A stretch of 9,417 nucleotides of DNA, from NCBI GenBank assembly GCA_900313545.1, contig OMRS01000031.1, positions 1-9,417 on the forward strand. Direction: 5' to 3'. Of the stretch, positions 2,873 through 9,381 are shown in pieces (position 1 is the stretch's first letter; each line of letters starts with the position of its first letter). The stretch comes from an uncultured Eubacteriales bacterium (GTDB taxonomy: Bacteria > Bacillota_A > Clostridia > Christensenellales > Aristaeellaceae). The notes beneath the pieces are model-generated. The model saw only the letters and a list, made by a program, of their open reading frames with translations, was not told the DNA's origin and did not search any database. The position numbers and the translations under genes are program-made.

Positions 2873-3766
2873 ATGGAGTGCGGGAGGAATGCGCTGAGGC
2901 AGCGCAACTGGGACGTGATGGCCCTGTGCAGCGGGTACCTGAGAAGTGGCGCCCGGATCCTGCCGGAGCAGGTGGACCAGCTTCAAAGCTCGTGCGGAAT
3001 CGGGGAGGAGGAGGCGGTCCTGCAGCTGCTGTGTGCGCAGTGCGGGCTTGACTACGGGCAGCGCGGGCACCGGGAGATAATCGAGCGCTATCTGCGCCCC
3101 GGTCTTCGCAGGCTTGATCCGGGGAACTACCGGGCAGCCGCCTACCGGAGGATACTGGACCATCTGGAGGTTCAGCAGGGCAGATGGCAGATCACTCAGG
3201 CGGAATACCGGCCTTTTGAGATTTTCGTCCGGGATGATCTGCAGGTCCTGGCGGACGGAAGGGAGATCCCGCAGCTCGGGTACTTCGGGGAACCTTTCCC
3301 GTATGCCACGGTTCGCGAAAACGGCAACGACTGGATGACGCTGGCACCTGTGGAAATCAACAGCATGAAGGGACCTGTTTCCCGCTCAAAGGGCGAGGTG
3401 GTCACCCTGGGTCTGGGTCTGGGATATTTTGCCTTTGAAGCGGGCTGCCGCAGGGAGGTGTCGCGCCTGACGGTGGTGGAGAGGGACGCTGAGCTTATTT
3501 CGATGTTCAGGGAACGGCTGCTGCCTGCATTTCCCTGCAGGGAAAAGATCGCCCTGGTGTGTATGGATGCCTTTGAATATGTCCGTCTTGTGCTGCCCCG
3601 AAGGCGCCCGGATTATCTGTTTTGCGACATCTGGCATGATGCGGGAGACGGGCTCCCCCTGTATCAGAAGCTGAAACGGGAGATTCCCGCAGACCTCCCC
3701 TGCGACTACTGGATTGAGAACCTGCTGCGGGCAAGAGAACAAATGCTGGAGGCATCCGATGAATGA
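2873..3766 (+). CDS. SAM-dependent methyltransferase-fold protein (spermidine-synthase-like), function unknown
   Basis: 297 residues, cytoplasmic (no signal or membrane segment). The N-terminal ~110 residues look helical and match no family I recognise. Residues 174-190 (GEVVTLGLGLGYFAFEA) fit the glycine-rich nucleotide loop of class I methyltransferases. TVVERD (200-205) supplies the acidic residue at the end of strand 2 expected to hold the ribose. MDAFEYV (231-237) and PDYLFCDIW (246-254) fit the motif II and III strands. The order resembles spermidine/spermine synthases, but the aminopropyltransferase active-site motifs are not evident, so the substrate is unknown. The start at 2873 follows the previous stop by 5 bases. 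GAGAAGG (2853-2859) is 13 bases upstream, long for a ribosome site, so translation probably depends on coupling. An internal ATG at codon 16 is an alternative. The gene overlaps the DUF3783 gene by 8 bases. Confidence 0.6.
   Translation: MECGRNALRQRNWDVMALCSGYLRSGARILPEQVDQLQSSCGIGEEEAVLQLLCAQCGLDYGQRGHREIIERYLRPGLRRLDPGNYRAAAYRRILDHLEVQQGRWQITQAEYRPFEIFVRDDLQVLADGREIPQLGYFGEPFPYATVRENGNDWMTLAPVEINSMKGPVSRSKGEVVTLGLGLGYFAFEAGCRREVSRLTVVERDAELISMFRERLLPAFPCREKIALVCMDAFEYVRLVLPRRRPDYLFCDIWHDAGDGLPLYQKLKREIPADLPCDYWIENLLRAREQMLEASDE
3748..3752 (+). promoter_or_regulatory. Ribosome binding site deciding the DUF3783 start
   Basis: GGAGG ends 6 bases before the ATG at 3759. The frame is also open further upstream (ATG at 3714), but only the 3759 start has a correctly spaced site, and it gives the expected family N-terminus. 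Confidence 0.7.
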
Positions 3767-4133
3767 ATCTGCGACGCTGCTGTGCTTTGGACTGGACGGG
3801 GAGCGCATGAAGCTGCTGGAGGGCATGGCCGTGATGCAGGGCATGCGGGTGCGCCGCGTCATGCGTGAGGAGGCTGCCATGCCCCTGGAGGAGATCCTTC
3901 GCCGGAAAGAACCGGAGGGGGGGACGCCCTTTCCGGGAATGATGCTGGTCATGTGTCACCTGAGCGACCCCGCACTGGATATGGTGCTGAAGGAACTGTC
4001 CCGGGGCGGTCCCCGGACGGCAATCCCTCTCAAGGCGGTCCTGACATCCGCCAACCGCCGTTTCAGACCGATGGAGCTGATGATGCACCTGATGTCAGAA
4101 TCGGAGAAAATCAGAAACGCAGGACGAAAGTGA
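3759..4133 (+). CDS. DUF3783 family protein
   Basis: 124 residues, small and cytoplasmic, with no signal peptide. It begins with a beta-strand-like segment (SATLLCFGLDGERM), followed by a central segment with FPGMMLVMCHLSD. The C-terminal signature IPLKAVLTSANRRF...MELMMHLMSES matches what I recall of DUF3783 (I-x-LKAVLT-x-x-N-x-x-W, then a short helix rich in Glu/His). The position usually occupied by Trp is Phe. No biochemical function is established for the family. The ATG at 3759 overlaps the end of the methyltransferase-like gene (stop 3764-3766), and the stop at 4131-4133 is 17 bases before the chosen start of the TRAP-type gene, so it is almost certainly co-translated with its neighbours. 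Confidence 0.75.
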   Translation: MNESATLLCFGLDGERMKLLEGMAVMQGMRVRRVMREEAAMPLEEILRRKEPEGGTPFPGMMLVMCHLSDPALDMVLKELSRGGPRTAIPLKAVLTSANRRFRPMELMMHLMSESEKIRNAGRK

Positions 4134-4150
4134 TCCGTGCAGGAAAGGAC

Positions 4151-5155
4151 GTGAACGGCTTGAAAAGATGGCTGTGGACAGCGCTGGTCTGGCTGTGCCT
4201 GAGTGCCCAGGTTCAGGCGGAAACGGTTCAGATGATCCTGAGCGAATCCTATCCGGAGAACCATCCCGTGGTCCGGGCGGAACGGGAGTTTGCCCAGAAC
4301 GTGAATGAGCGCAGCGGGGGACGGATTCAGATTGAGCTGTCCTGTTCCGGGAGACTGTATCTGGAGGAGGCGGCAGCGCTTGAAGGCGTGCTGCACGGGG
4401 ATGTGGCCCTCGCTCGGGTGAGCGCGACGGTCTGTGAAAAGCTGGTGCCGGAGATGGAGGTGTTCCGCCTTCCCTATCTGTTTGGCAGCGGGGAGCATTA
4501 CCGGCGGGTCATGGAAGGAAATATCGGGGAGGAACTGCTCGGCGCGATCGGGCGCAGCGGCGGGGGCGCGCAGGCCCTGTGCTGGCTGGATGGCGGCGCG
4601 CAGGGATGGTACACGACCCGTCCCCTGGTGAATCTGGGGGATTTGAAAAATCGCAGAATCTGCACGGAGAATCCCCTTCTCAAGGAGGTCCTTGAACACC
4701 TGGGTGCCCGGACGCTGACGGGCATCGGCCCCCACAGCGTGTATTCGACGCTGGCGCAGGGCAATGCGGAAGGCGCGGAGGGGACGGCTCTGGACTACTA
4801 TACCCGGGGCGATTATGATGCGGCGCCCTACTACTACCAGGACCGTCACCTGCAGATCCCGGGTGTGCTGCTCATTTCCGACAGGGCGCTGGAGCTGCTG
4901 GAGGAACAGGATGCAGCAATTCTGCTGGAGGAAGCGGGAACCCTGAACCGCAGGGCAGGTGAGCTGCTGGAGGAGACGATGCAGGCCCAGAGGGCGGCCA
5001 TCGAGGAAGCCGGAGGCCACTTTGAAGAACCCGCACAGGAGGAGAGGTCGGACACGGCCCGCAGCCTGATGTCGGGAAGTTCCTCAGGGATTGGAAAGAT
5101 CCGGGACAGACAGCAGACACTGGTTGACCGCATCGAGACGGAGAACAACGGGTAG
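4151..5155 (+). CDS. Orphan TRAP-type solute-binding protein (DctP family), divergent
   Basis: 334 residues, the usual size of DctP-like periplasmic or extracytoplasmic binding proteins. Residues 1-23 form a signal peptide (KRW, hydrophobic core, likely cleavage after AQVQA); no lipobox is seen. Family features: ENHPVVRAEREFAQNVNERSGG near residue 36, the LPYLFGSGEHYRRVM segment (106-121), GDLKNRRI...LEHLGA (163-185), and the HSVYSTLAQGNAEGAEG hinge region (195-211). By recalled alignment to SiaP, both ligand-contacting arginines appear replaced (Gln at the first, Cys171 at the second), so the ligand may not be a carboxylate. No TRAP membrane subunits lie in the window. GTG at 4151 is chosen with AGGA 6 bases upstream. 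TTG at 4160 (331 residues) and GTG at 4130, which overlaps the previous stop, are alternatives. The C-terminal ~60 residues are charged and helical. Confidence 0.8.
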   Translation: MNGLKRWLWTALVWLCLSAQVQAETVQMILSESYPENHPVVRAEREFAQNVNERSGGRIQIELSCSGRLYLEEAAALEGVLHGDVALARVSATVCEKLVPEMEVFRLPYLFGSGEHYRRVMEGNIGEELLGAIGRSGGGAQALCWLDGGAQGWYTTRPLVNLGDLKNRRICTENPLLKEVLEHLGARTLTGIGPHSVYSTLAQGNAEGAEGTALDYYTRGDYDAAPYYYQDRHLQIPGVLLISDRALELLEEQDAAILLEEAGTLNRRAGELLEETMQAQRAAIEEAGGHFEEPAQEERSDTARSLMSGSSSGIGKIRDRQQTLVDRIETENNG

Positions 5156-5340: not shown

Positions 5341-7497
5341 TTACTTTTTGGGACGGATCAGCTCGGTGGAATAGTACTGGCCGTTTCTGTAGAAATAGCA
5401 GGTGACGGCCTGGCCGGGGAGAATCTGTCCGCAGATCCTGCGCAGGGTTGCCCGGCCCAGGACGGTGGCTCCGCCGATTCCCATGAGGATGTCGCCAGGC
5501 ATCAGGCCGGCGTCTTCAGCGGGAGATCTGGGCACAATCTCCTGAATATAGGTTCCCTGGGGGAGACTGTAGTACTCCTGATAGGGCGGCAGGATATAGG
5601 TGCCTCTGATGCCCATGTCCCATTCGGAACTGATCCGCCGCTCATCTTCGGTCAGGGTGATGGGAAGCGTGTTGATCTGGATTTCCGGAGGACATTTATC
5701 CACGGGAACAAAGACCAGCTGATCATCATCGATGTAGACGGTTTGAGATCCCACCCTGTACCAGCAGATGGCGACCTGGGCGCCGGGGAAGTAGGTCTTG
5801 TAGGCGACTGTAAAGTGATGCGGCCACGTGAATTCCCAGTCTGCGGTTTCGTTGGTTTCAAAATCGGAATAGGAATGGCCGGGCTGAATGAGCACATCCG
5901 CCGAGTATTCGCGGAGGCATTCCTTCTCATAGGAGCCTTCATACCCCAGAGGCTCACCTGTGGCGCTGTTGGGCAGCACCTTGATGCCGAAAGACGAGAT
6001 CCTTCCGCCGGAGTTGTTTCTGACCACCAGCTGGACGCTGCCGTAGAAATCATACTGGGTACAGGCGGCGCGCTGGATATAGACCGGCTGATTCTTGGCC
6101 TGCAGATAGACAACGGCCTTGGAGGATTTTTGGTTGGGGAGGGTCCTTTCGTCATAAAGCATGGCCTGAGTCAGGGGATCCGCGATGCCAGTGGGCTCAA
6201 TGCCCACATCCCGCTGGAAACGGGCCACGATTTCGGCAGTGGATTTGGTATACAGATTGGTGGTGCTTTCGTTCTGGTAATAGCCTTTCTCGTAAAGGCG
6301 CTGACGAAGGTTGACCACGTGCTTGTTCCTGTCGCCCACATTGAGAGTCTCAAACTCTTTCAGTTCCTCTTCCGTGTAGTAGAAGGGCTCCGGGTTATCC
6401 GCGGCGACAGACAGGGGATCCGTGGAGATCACGGGGAAACGGGCCTTGAGTTCCTCAACGCTGACGCTGTTCAGGTGCACGGGGCGGAGCTGCTCCACCA
6501 TCTCTTCCAGCAGATATCCGCCGGGCATGTTCATGGTTGCTTCGATATGCAGCCATGGCTTGTCGTCAACGACGATACGTCCGGAAGCATAGATGCGCAG
6601 ACCTTCCTCGAGTGCCCCGAGACGGTCCCCGTTGGGAGTTTTGCGCAGATTGCAGCGGATAATGGTGCGCACCAGCTTATGCTCAGAGAATACCTCTTCC
6701 ACAGGCTCCGGAGTGGGAGAGACATAGGGCGTGGGAGCCGGCGTATTTGTCGGGACGGGAGTCGGTGTCGGGGTGGGAATCGGCTCCAACAGGGAGGAGA
6801 GGATATAGCCCTTTTTCCCGGAATCCTTTAAACGGATATAGCACCAGTCTTCACCGTTGTAGGCAAAACGCTCAAAAACCCGGAGGTAGGAGCGGGGCGG
6901 AACGGCGGTAATCACGATGGCCTGGGTGTTCGGTTCCTTGCGGATATTGGCCCCCTTGTTGGTGCGCATCATGGAAGCATCTGTGAACTGCGACTCGTCA
7001 TACTGCTTCTGGTCCGGACGCAGTGTGGGCACCGGTGTGGGAACGGGTGTCGGCGTGGGAACGGGTGTGGGAGTGGGAGCGGGGGTCGGTGAGGGCGTCG
7101 GCGTGGGAGTGGGGGTCGGCGTGGGGACAGGGGTAGGCGAAGGAGTGGGAGTGGGTGAGGGCGTGGGAGTGGGCGTTGGAATCGGTTCGCACAGTTCCGC
7201 CAGAATATAGCCTTTCCACTTGCTGCCCTTCGGATGAACATACAGCCATGTCTCTCCGCCTTTATCGACTGTTTCCAGAATTTCCACGTTCTGGAATTTG
7301 GGTAGGCGCTGCACAAGATCGGATTTGATGTCCGGTTTCTTACGCATGTTTGCCTGTTTTTTGGTTCGCAGGAATTTTTCAGATATCACGGAAGCGGTGT
7401 CTGCTTCTGTTCCTTCCGTTCCCTCACACCATCCGGGGAGAGAAATCAGAAGAAAGGCAAGGCAGATCAGCCAAAGAAATCTGGCAGTTCTGTTCAC
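5341..7497 (-). CDS. Large exported wall-associated protein: three SH3 domains, peptidoglycan-binding domain, beta domain, C-terminal PDZ
   Basis: 718 residues, predicted to be secreted and wall-bound. Residues 1-25 form a signal peptide. Three bacterial SH3-like domains lie at about 42-106, 174-240 and 272-338. Each opens with a related strand ([36 protein letters not shown]) and the first two end in GYIL. Pro-Thr linkers follow the first (106-162) and second (238-266). A PG_binding_1-like domain spans about 384-450 ([23 protein letters not shown]...[12 protein letters not shown]). A beta-rich domain (about 477-602) contains [16 protein letters not shown], reminiscent of FxLYD-type domains. 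The C-terminal ~75 residues are a PDZ domain ([27 protein letters not shown]). No protease or other catalytic domain is present, so a scaffold, sensor or wall-anchoring role is inferred. The GTG start at 7497 is set by AGGAGGT 8 bases upstream. It is a single-gene unit with its own promoter and terminator. Confidence 0.85.
7018..7185 (-). repeat. Pro-Thr linker low-complexity tract (first linker)
   Basis: About 55 codons of Pro-Thr-Pro-(Thr/Ser/Val/Ala), seen on the + strand as GTGGGN-type hexamer repeats. It separates SH3 domains 1 and 2. A shorter version (about 6703-6782) separates SH3 domains 2 and 3. The repeat makes the opposite strand look open as a Gly-Thr-Val frame, which is a shadow. 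Confidence 0.85.
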
Positions 7498-7751: not shown

Positions 7752-7758
7752 GAAGGAG
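7752..7758 (+). promoter_or_regulatory. Ribosome binding site deciding the tandem-barnase start
   Basis: GAAGGAG lies only 2 bases before the ATG at 7761 but 8 bases before the in-frame ATG at 7767, so 7767 is preferred. Either start leaves the signal peptide intact. Confidence 0.75.
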
Positions 7759-7766
7759 CGATGACA

Positions 7767-8645
7767 ATGAGAAAACATGTTTTAAGGCTGATGATCCTGC
7801 TGCTGGTCCTTGCAGCCGCTGCGGCCCATGCGCAGATTCTCGTTGATGCGGCAAAGTGGCCGATTCGTGAGGACGGATGGTATTCCTCCATGGAAGAGGT
7901 GTCGGTGTACCTGGACCGCTATGCCAGGCTTCCTGAGAACTATCTGACCAAGGCGGAAGCACGGAATCTGGGCTGGGGAAGCCTGTACAGAAATGTCGGA
8001 GATGCGGCGCAGGGCATGTCCATCGGCGGTGACCGGTACGGCAACTATGAAGGACTGCTGCCGGAGGCATCAGGCAGACGGTGGACGGAATGCGATATCG
8101 ACTACGCCGGGAAGAAAAGGAATGGCAAACGAATTGTATTCTCAAATGACGGACTGATCTATTATACCCAGGACCACTACAGCACGTTTGAAGAGGTCAG
8201 GGTAGAGAATCAGGACGGGAAGGCGGCCGGCGGGAAACCTGCAAAGGACAGCGGGTCGCAGGAGGACGGCCATGGAATGAAGATACGCTATACCCAAAGC
8301 CAGGTCGAGGAATGGGAACACTATACGGCATGGCAGGATGTTTCGGCATATCTGATGACCTACGGTCATCTTCCGGAAAACTACATGACGATGGAGGAAG
8401 CCCGGGAACTTGGATTCAGCTCGAAGAAGGACAATATGAACCAGGTGGCCTGGGGATATGGCATCGGAGGCGGAAGGTATGAGAACCGTGAGGGGCTTTT
8501 GCCGGCGGGGCAGTGGCTGCAGTGCGATGTGGACATGAAGAACGGCAAACGCGGTAACCACCGTCTGGTATGGAATGAAGAGAAGGTCTATCTGTCGGAG
8601 GACAGACTGAAGAGCTTCGTGGAGATAAGGAGGAAGGAACCGTGA
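7767..8645 (+). CDS. Secreted ribonuclease with two tandem barnase-like domains, second domain degenerate
   Basis: 292 residues. A signal peptide (1-22, likely cleavage after AHA) directs export. Domain 1 (about 43-145) and domain 2 (about 191-289) are both of the barnase family, which cleaves RNA after guanosine. Shared marks are LPENY, EAR-x-LG, IGG-x-RY-x-N-x-EG-LLP and the W-x-x-C-D stretch. Domain 1 keeps the equivalents of barnase Glu73 (E108), Arg83 (R118), Arg87 (R122), His102 (H137) and Tyr103 (Y138), but has Arg54 for Lys27 and Tyr94 for Arg59. Domain 2 keeps Arg59 (R241), Arg83 (R262) and Arg87 (R266), but has Gln252 for Glu73, Arg280 for His102 and Leu281 for Tyr103, so it is probably inactive. 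A hydrophilic Gly/Lys/Asp linker (about 146-172) joins them. The barstar-like gene overlaps its stop by GTGA, as expected for toxin plus immunity. Target (competitor, host or environmental RNA) is unknown. Confidence 0.9.
   Translation: MRKHVLRLMILLLVLAAAAAHAQILVDAAKWPIREDGWYSSMEEVSVYLDRYARLPENYLTKAEARNLGWGSLYRNVGDAAQGMSIGGDRYGNYEGLLPEASGRRWTECDIDYAGKKRNGKRIVFSNDGLIYYTQDHYSTFEEVRVENQDGKAAGGKPAKDSGSQEDGHGMKIRYTQSQVEEWEHYTAWQDVSAYLMTYGHLPENYMTMEEARELGFSSKKDNMNQVAWGYGIGGGRYENREGLLPAGQWLQCDVDMKNGKRGNHRLVWNEEKVYLSEDRLKSFVEIRRKEP
8627..8633 (+). promoter_or_regulatory. Strong ribosome binding site for the barstar gene inside the barnase gene
   Basis: AAGGAGG ends 8 bases before the GTG at 8642 and lies in the last codons of the ribonuclease gene. 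It allows barstar to be translated efficiently by coupling and by independent initiation, which would help keep inhibitor in excess over toxin. Confidence 0.8.
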
Positions 8646-9126: not shown

Positions 9127-9381
9127 TCAGCGGTGCGAAGCAGACTTCACAAAAGAGAAGCTCATGATATCCTTCGCCAGCCGATCAGCAGCTTTGGACT
9201 GATCAGGATTGGATTTGTTCAGTGGGTATACGGTGAGGCAGTATTCATCGTATTCGTTAGGGGTGAGTCTGGCAAACTGACAGATGTCATTATTATCTTG
9301 AAATAAATATATATAGTTATCAGTGGTGCCATTGGCGTCCTCATAGGACTCAGCGGAGTTGTCCTTAATGTGGTCTTTCAT
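9127..9381 (-). CDS. Unrecognised protein fragment, possibly the C-terminal end of a broken exported protein
   Basis: 84 residues from the ATG at 9381. The composition is protein-like and acidic (DNYIYLFQDNNDICQF, then YDEYCLTVYPL and DRLAKDIMSFSF). The alternation of short hydrophobic strands ending in an amphipathic helix with SFSF resembles the C-terminal end of PsbP/DUF1795-type or small lipoprotein domains, but I do not recognise the family. No signal peptide and no good ribosome site precede the ATG. The frame continues sensibly for 8 codons upstream to a stop at 9406-9408, which suggests an N-terminally truncated or frameshifted gene rather than an intact one. It is more A+T-rich than the genes to its left. 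The window ends 9 bases beyond that stop, so the upstream part cannot be judged. Confidence 0.4.
   Translation of the reverse strand: MKDHIKDNSAESYEDANGTTDNYIYLFQDNNDICQFARLTPNEYDEYCLTVYPLNKSNPDQSKAADRLAKDIMSFSFVKSASHR

Follow-up and report, generated by a model that had tools for sequence, protein, structure and literature searches.

Work on catalysis, folding and protein-protein binding uses barnase as a standard model, and has studied it as one small domain. The window analysed here, a stretch of 9,417 nucleotides from an uncultured Eubacteriales bacterium (contig OMRS01000031.1), contains a gene in which two barnase-like domains follow one another in a single chain, the second without the general acid and the general base of barnase. 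This locus raises the question of what such a domain might do beside a live one.

A tandem barnase gene overlaps a barstar gene

The open reading frame encodes a putative signal peptide and two barnase domains, and its frame and coordinates, as the first-pass annotation gave them, were correct on re-check (Table 1). Of the two candidate start codons, ATG 7767 is preferred to ATG 7761, as the GAAGGAG motif ends 8 nt before the former and 2 nt before the latter. The protein is predicted to be secreted. Two stretches match PF00545 (E 7.3e-26) and the domains share 42% identity (45/106, E 7e-28), far beyond chance, which bears out the annotation's view that one polypeptide carries two barnase-like domains. 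With PF00545 the only Pfam family matched in the tandem protein, we found neither a wall-binding family nor the N-terminal trafficking or repeat domains and exchangeable toxin tip of a polymorphic toxin. The AlphaFold2 model has a mean pLDDT of 91.2 and a pTM of 0.60; both domains lie mostly above 90, and the lowest values, below 50, fall at linker residues 152-157.

Table 1. Features of the tandem barnase locus, in window coordinates, with the basis of each assignment.
Feature	Positions	Strand	Basis
Ribosome-binding-like GAAGGAG, 8 nt 5' of ATG 7767	7752..7758	+	sequence reading; inference
Tandem barnase gene, 292 aa	7767..8645	+	open reading frame; two PF00545 stretches
Putative signal peptide, residues 1-22	7767..7832	+	sequence; helix 2-17 in model; cleavage after AHA judged by eye
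Domain 1, predicted live barnase domain, residues 38-145	7878..8201	+	
K62 (barnase K27)	7950..7952	+	alignment
E108 (barnase E73, general base)	8088..8090	+	alignment
R118 to R122 (barnase R83 and R87)	8118..8132	+	alignment
H137 (barnase H102, general acid)	8175..8177	+	alignment
Linker, residues 146-182	8202..8312	+	pLDDT <50 at 152-157; 17-51 aa in 28 genome tandems
Domain 2, predicted pseudo-barnase, residues 183-288	8313..8630	+	PF00545 E 1.8e-7 alone; 42% identity to domain 1
M209 replacing K27	8391..8393	+	alignment
N240-R241-E242, guanine loop (barnase N58, R59, E60), retained	8484..8492	+	N 120, R 118, E 120 of 120 listed homologues
Q252 replacing E73	8520..8522	+	CAG at 8520; Glu in 118/120 listed homologues
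R262 to R266 (barnase R83 and R87), retained	8550..8564	+	both Arg in 120/120 listed homologues, 28/28 genomes
R280 replacing H102	8604..8606	+	His in 0/120 listed homologues, 0/28 genomes
Barstar gene, 93 aa, GTG start overlapping the barnase stop codon	8642..8923	+	PF01337 E 8e-16; PDB barstar E 1.5e-7

Domain 1 has the barnase fold and passes PF00545, with 91 bits for the whole protein against a cut-off of 24 (best stretch 49-146 of a 294-aa reading). The catalytic set of Lys27, Glu73, Arg83, Arg87 and His102 is complete as K62, E108, R118, R122 and H137, the last four of which stand in the columns that the annotation had assigned to them. We take the barnase numbering of these columns to be E73, R83, R87 and H102, which agrees with the PDB ranges of the matches. 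A protein search returned 7466 matches, and the best 120 were examined; all align over both domains, and one, P0002, is the window protein itself. In domain 1 of these 120 listed homologues K27, R83, R87 and H102 are present in every case and E73 in 119. The 28 tandems found in genomes have Lys, both Arg and His in all domain 1 copies, with Glu in 28/28.

The downstream gene exceeds the PF01337 cut-off (58.2 bits versus 23.4), with the contact acids Asp35 and Asp39 both aligned. A single barstar on the same strand accompanies the tandem in 28/28 genomes, its match beginning 3-34 nt after the last barnase codon.

The other genes of the window include, upstream of the barnase gene and divergent from it, a 718-aa protein (5341-7497, minus strand) with two SH3_3 stretches and a peptidoglycan-binding domain, with Pro/Thr-rich spacers, and with a PDZ domain at its C terminus. 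A DctP-type solute-binding protein (4142-5155, plus strand; PF03480, E 1e-39) adjoins a DUF3783 protein (3756-4133), and an 84-aa open reading frame (9127-9381, minus strand) has no match in Pfam, NCBIfam or PHROGs. Among the ten neighbouring genes tested at the tandem loci L001-L004, we saw neither the SH3/PDZ protein nor any shared neighbourhood or toxin context.

Loss of the catalytic histidine marks domain 2 across the family

Domain 2 alone also exceeds the PF00545 cut-off (32 bits versus 24), as do its counterparts: 28/28 dead domains of alignment A2 match the family. It has high pLDDT, a barnase-like order of elements and a profile match to PDB barnases, and a barnase fold is probable for it; the structural matches to PDB entries cover mainly residues 21-148. 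Q252, R262, R266 and R280 occupy the E73, R83, R87 and H102 columns, so that, as the annotation had it, R280 stands for the general acid and Q252 for the general base. Lys27 is further replaced by Met209 and Tyr103 by Leu281. The third Arg of domain 2 is R241, at the place of barnase R59, where domain 1 of the window has Tyr94 (residues 94-96, 8046-8054). We infer that domain 2 is catalytically dead.

Conservation separates what is general in these changes from what is local. Among the 120 listed homologues, domain 2 has R83, R87, E60 and N58 in all 120 and R59 and E73 in 118 each; the two with Gln at E73 are the window protein and its close relative P0003. The K27 place holds Lys in 69 and Arg in 27. 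At the H102 place we find Ala (33), Lys (26), Asn (21), Arg (18), Gly (13), Ser (5), Gln (3) and Asp (1), and His in none. The 28 genome tandems have Glu in 23 and Gln in 5 at E73 and again no His, L111 being one residue shorter at that column and so appearing as a gap; R83, R87 and N58 are present in all, E60 in 27/28, and Arg or Lys at position 59 in 28/28. On the domain-2 tree there are 2 Glu/Gln changes, and 9 changes at the His column, none of them to His.

The claim that domain 2 lacks both catalytic residues thus holds for His throughout the family, while Glu is mostly kept. His loss marks the tandem family. Gln252 is a local change, because Glu is found in domain 2 of 118/120 listed homologues and 23/28 genomes, and we rejected it as a family character. 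None of the 120 listed homologues or the 28 genome tandems has two intact domains. Because the window's domain 2 is among the more changed copies (Gln252, Met209, Arg280, Leu281 and small deletions), conclusions drawn across the family are safer than any on the window protein alone.

Domain 2 could still be a weak RNase that works through Glu73 and another acid. This would fit the retention of Glu and both Arg in most relatives, and His does occur at the next position (barnase 103) in 32/120 listed homologues and 6/28 genomes. We consider it improbable, however, since the position of the acid varies freely among Ala, Lys, Asn, Arg, Gly, Ser and others without a single reversion to His, and since Glu itself has been lost at least twice (2 tree changes), including in the window. 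Moreover, H102A barnase is called catalytically inactive (PMC6306431; title of PDB 2c4b).

An inter-domain disulfide between C109 and C253 was rejected: both Cys are invariant in the 120 homologues but are not tied to the tandem, as Cys stands at this place in 116/117 single-domain relatives as well; 76 of the 117 had been collected by a scan with three patterns, one of which included this Cys. At barnase position 59, Tyr occurs in the live domain of 120/120 listed homologues and in about 73% of the 117 single-domain relatives, although in barnase itself R59 is among the main contacts to barstar. The acid at barstar position 76 is kept although single live domains nearby have Tyr59. Because live domains have Tyr59, yet their barstars keep this acid, the pair of domain 1 and barstar may bind somewhat differently from barnase and barstar.

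In the genomes sampled, the tandem occurs in one family and in two domain orders

In named genomes 539 loci were confirmed and the best 80 kept, 4 of them tandem and 76 single. The four tandem loci come from metagenome-assembled genomes of Clostridia or an unspecified bacterium, three of them from roe deer. Within the family-level group of the first locus, 28/300 genomes give a full-length tandem match. A class-wide search at E <= 1e-60 matched 2/391 genomes, namely the genome of the first locus and one in which a single domain is covered, and an order-wide search at E <= 1e-90 matched 5/396, all five within the 28. In the genomes sampled, no tandem was seen outside a single family-level group of Clostridia. 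Of the 29 genomes that share the genus-level group of the first locus, 6 have the tandem, 14 have a single live domain and 9 give no match at E <= 1e-30. Domain 2 is therefore not needed for a working pair, because 14 of these 29 genomes have a live domain without a dead one. A mobile origin of the tandem was considered and set aside, with no relative confirmed in viral contigs and no PHROGs match; among plasmid records, 4 had any match and none had a single place covering 80% of the query.

The single-domain proteins nearest to domain 1 (L005-L008, L113, L114 and L116-L122) end, in place of a dead domain, in an acidic C-terminal tail of 23-49 aa with a net charge of -4 to -17, and 11/13 of these tails close with a Trp-Leu-Phe-like motif. 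Tails of at least 20 aa are found in 7/103 of the other singles. Tandems and tailed singles occur in the same genus-level group, 13 of whose 14 genomes with a single domain were read, so the tail may serve as a different kind of accessory element or as a self-inhibitor.

We saw no free-standing dead domain among the best 120 of 6658 matches of a profile of the 28 dead domains to proteins of single-domain length. The catalytic set is intact in 112 of these 120, and 8 are without His. Five of the 8 retain the tail of a live domain, two (P0127 and P0128) sit on contigs of 578 and 582 bases, and P0135, whose contig has up to 4325 bases, has its start within the domain. Seven can thus be explained as cut-off tandems, with P0135 as the exception.

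In five genomes of the same family (308 searched) the order is reversed. The N-terminal domain has Gly or Arg in place of His102, and the C-terminal domain has the full catalytic set. All five of these dead domains retain R59, E60, E73, R83 and R87, and their live partners have Tyr59, like domain 1. The barstar reading frame extends for well over 100 further residues, repetitive and hexapeptide-like by eye, in four of the five (L139, L157, L159, L160) and has no such extension in the fifth (L147/L158).

Trees were built from 14/28 genome tandems with P0001 and P0003, all five reverse-order genes and 41/117 singles. With 12 trait columns omitted, all 21 dead domains fall on one side of a branch (96/78); support for the grouping is 69 once binase is added. 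Domain 1 groups firmly with the single-domain proteins nearest to it (100/99). Because all sampled dead domains group even without the trait columns, the trees suggest a single dead lineage used in two domain orders. Constrained trees were not rejected, either with both domains of the reverse genes placed together (p-AU 0.376) or with domain 2 joined to domain 1 and the singles close to that domain (p-AU 0.413). Independent duplications are thus compatible with the trees.

Domain 2 is under purifying selection in close relatives

Four pairs have dS below 0.6 for each of the two domains, and in these omega ranges over 0.02-0.11 in domain 1 and over 0.06-0.18 in domain 2. The 14 pairs shown include values of up to 0.51 and 0.72, at which the counts are noisy or close to saturation. 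In 333/406 pairs the dN of domain 2 exceeds that of domain 1. These values indicate that domain 2 is constrained, though less so than domain 1, with purifying selection in close relatives. The annotation's suggestion that the second copy is retained is upheld by the His-less domain 2 of 120/120 listed homologues and 28/28 genomes together with the purifying selection in the four closest pairs.

The faster evolution of domain 2 and the extra losses in the window's copy would also be expected of a functionless, decaying duplicate. We regard this as highly improbable. Domain 2 is full-length and free of internal stops in 28/28 genomes, it has invariant Arg, Cys, Asp, Gly and Pro columns, omega is well below 1 in the closest pairs, and His-less domains with the same retained residues occur in two domain orders.

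What the dead domain may bind

With moderate confidence, we propose that the gene product is a secreted RNase in which a live domain 1 is joined to a pseudo-barnase that holds RNA, while barstar protects the producer. The protein would be a guanyl-type RNase with a working domain 1, a flexible linker and domain 2. Domain 2 would bind guanine-containing single-stranded RNA without cutting it, and would keep the RNA near domain 1 much as a carbohydrate-binding module does for a polysaccharidase. Barstar from the overlapping gene would shield the producer's cytosol from domain 1. This proposal starts from what can be read from the sequences, namely a two-domain protein, the His loss and its conservation, purifying selection among close relatives and the pairing with one barstar; to these it would add RNA binding and tethering by domain 2.

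We favour RNA holding because the domain 2 family is close to the H102A mutant of barnase, which has been studied with d(CGAC) bound. That mutant is described as catalytically inactive, and its purification was chosen to rid it of bound nucleotide (PMC6306431). Across the family, domain 2 retains the guanine loop, both phosphate-binding Arg and mostly Glu, with the acid His lost, and the dead domains of the five reverse-order genes show the same pattern. Among the new roles that the annotation had put forward for domain 2, RNA binding appears to fit best; for an inhibitor decoy we found no positive evidence. The retention of residues in domain 2 does not by itself point to RNA, because RNA and barstar use nearly the same residues.

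For this same reason, barstar binding is the main rival. Domain 2 might be a second barstar-binding site, acting as a decoy or sponge for the inhibitor of the producer or of a competitor, or as a tuner of barstar hold and release. One barstar gene adjoins each of the 28 tandems, and domain 2 retains R59, R83, R87 and E60, which are barstar contacts in a published table (PMC4207830), the first of them absent from domain 1. We nonetheless find a barstar site rather unlikely. H102, one of two barnase residues placed at the start of barstar association in the same source (PMC4207830), is lost throughout, and K27 is often lost. In addition, we compared barstars from tandems (29, the window's included), near singles (14), reverse-order genes (2) and other loci (89). 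The contact positions agree between barstars of tandems and those of the nearest single-domain genes, and no co-evolution with domain 2 was seen at these positions across the compared barstars.

The charge of domain 2 bears on RNA holding and on a further alternative. When all columns are compared, the largest gains of positive charge from domain 1 to domain 2 are at barnase positions 59, 39, 104 and 82, around the old active site, and at 31; the largest losses are at 55, 86, 19 and 40, and elsewhere the domain is more acidic. At nine contact positions from the published table (PMC4207830), domain 2 is the more positive of the two domains in 24 of the 28 genomes, equal in 2 and less positive in 2, which favours RNA holding. 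The charge picture is mixed, and part of the argument from it rests on columns picked after the alignment was seen. The changed charge pattern, like the signal peptide, would also suit a domain that binds the cell wall, a receptor or a surface polymer outside the cell, with the old active site reused or idle. This seems distinctly unlikely to us, as conservation falls on the nucleotide site and no wall-binding family was matched.

If RNA holding is combined with the grouping of the dead domains, a broader picture emerges, which we offer tentatively: a single pseudo-barnase lineage, joined in both orders to different live barnases within one family of Clostridia, would serve as a guanine-reading RNA-capture module for secreted RNases.

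Relation to known barnase systems and significance

The locus resembles the barnase/binase and barstar systems (PF00545, PF01337) in the fold and catalytic set of domain 1 and in the adjacent barstar. Known barnases among the PDB matches are single-domain proteins, whereas the tandem adds a fused, conserved copy without His. Domain 2 resembles the laboratory mutant H102A (for example PDB 2c4b), a barnase fold without the acid His. Unlike that mutant, domain 2 is natural, family-wide and in cis with a live domain, and it shows many residues at position 102 and changes at other positions too.

Two barnases are also found in one chain in the engineered scFv 4D5-dibarnase. That protein is an artificial construct in which two barnase molecules are fused to an antibody, and the available part of its description mentions no dead copy (PMC8625414). 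The native binase dimer brings two barnase-type units together as the tandem does, but these are described as two copies of one protein and not as a live and a dead domain in one chain (PMC6901985). Polymorphic toxin systems with barnase-type tips have, as here, a toxin gene followed by an Imm-Barstar gene (PMC3482391); in contrast, the tandem is without a trafficking or repeat domain and forms a simple two-gene pair with a signal peptide. We recognised no description of a natural tandem or dead barnase in the open-licence literature, which is weak evidence of absence.

Selection keeps a His-less barnase beside a live one in this family, a natural counterpart of a mutant made for binding studies. 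The family thereby allows direct tests of what use an RNase fold has after losing the ability to cut, and its many matched live and dead domains are material with which substrate and inhibitor binding can be separated from catalysis. If our proposal is true, the dead barnase would be the RNA equivalent of a carbohydrate-binding module.
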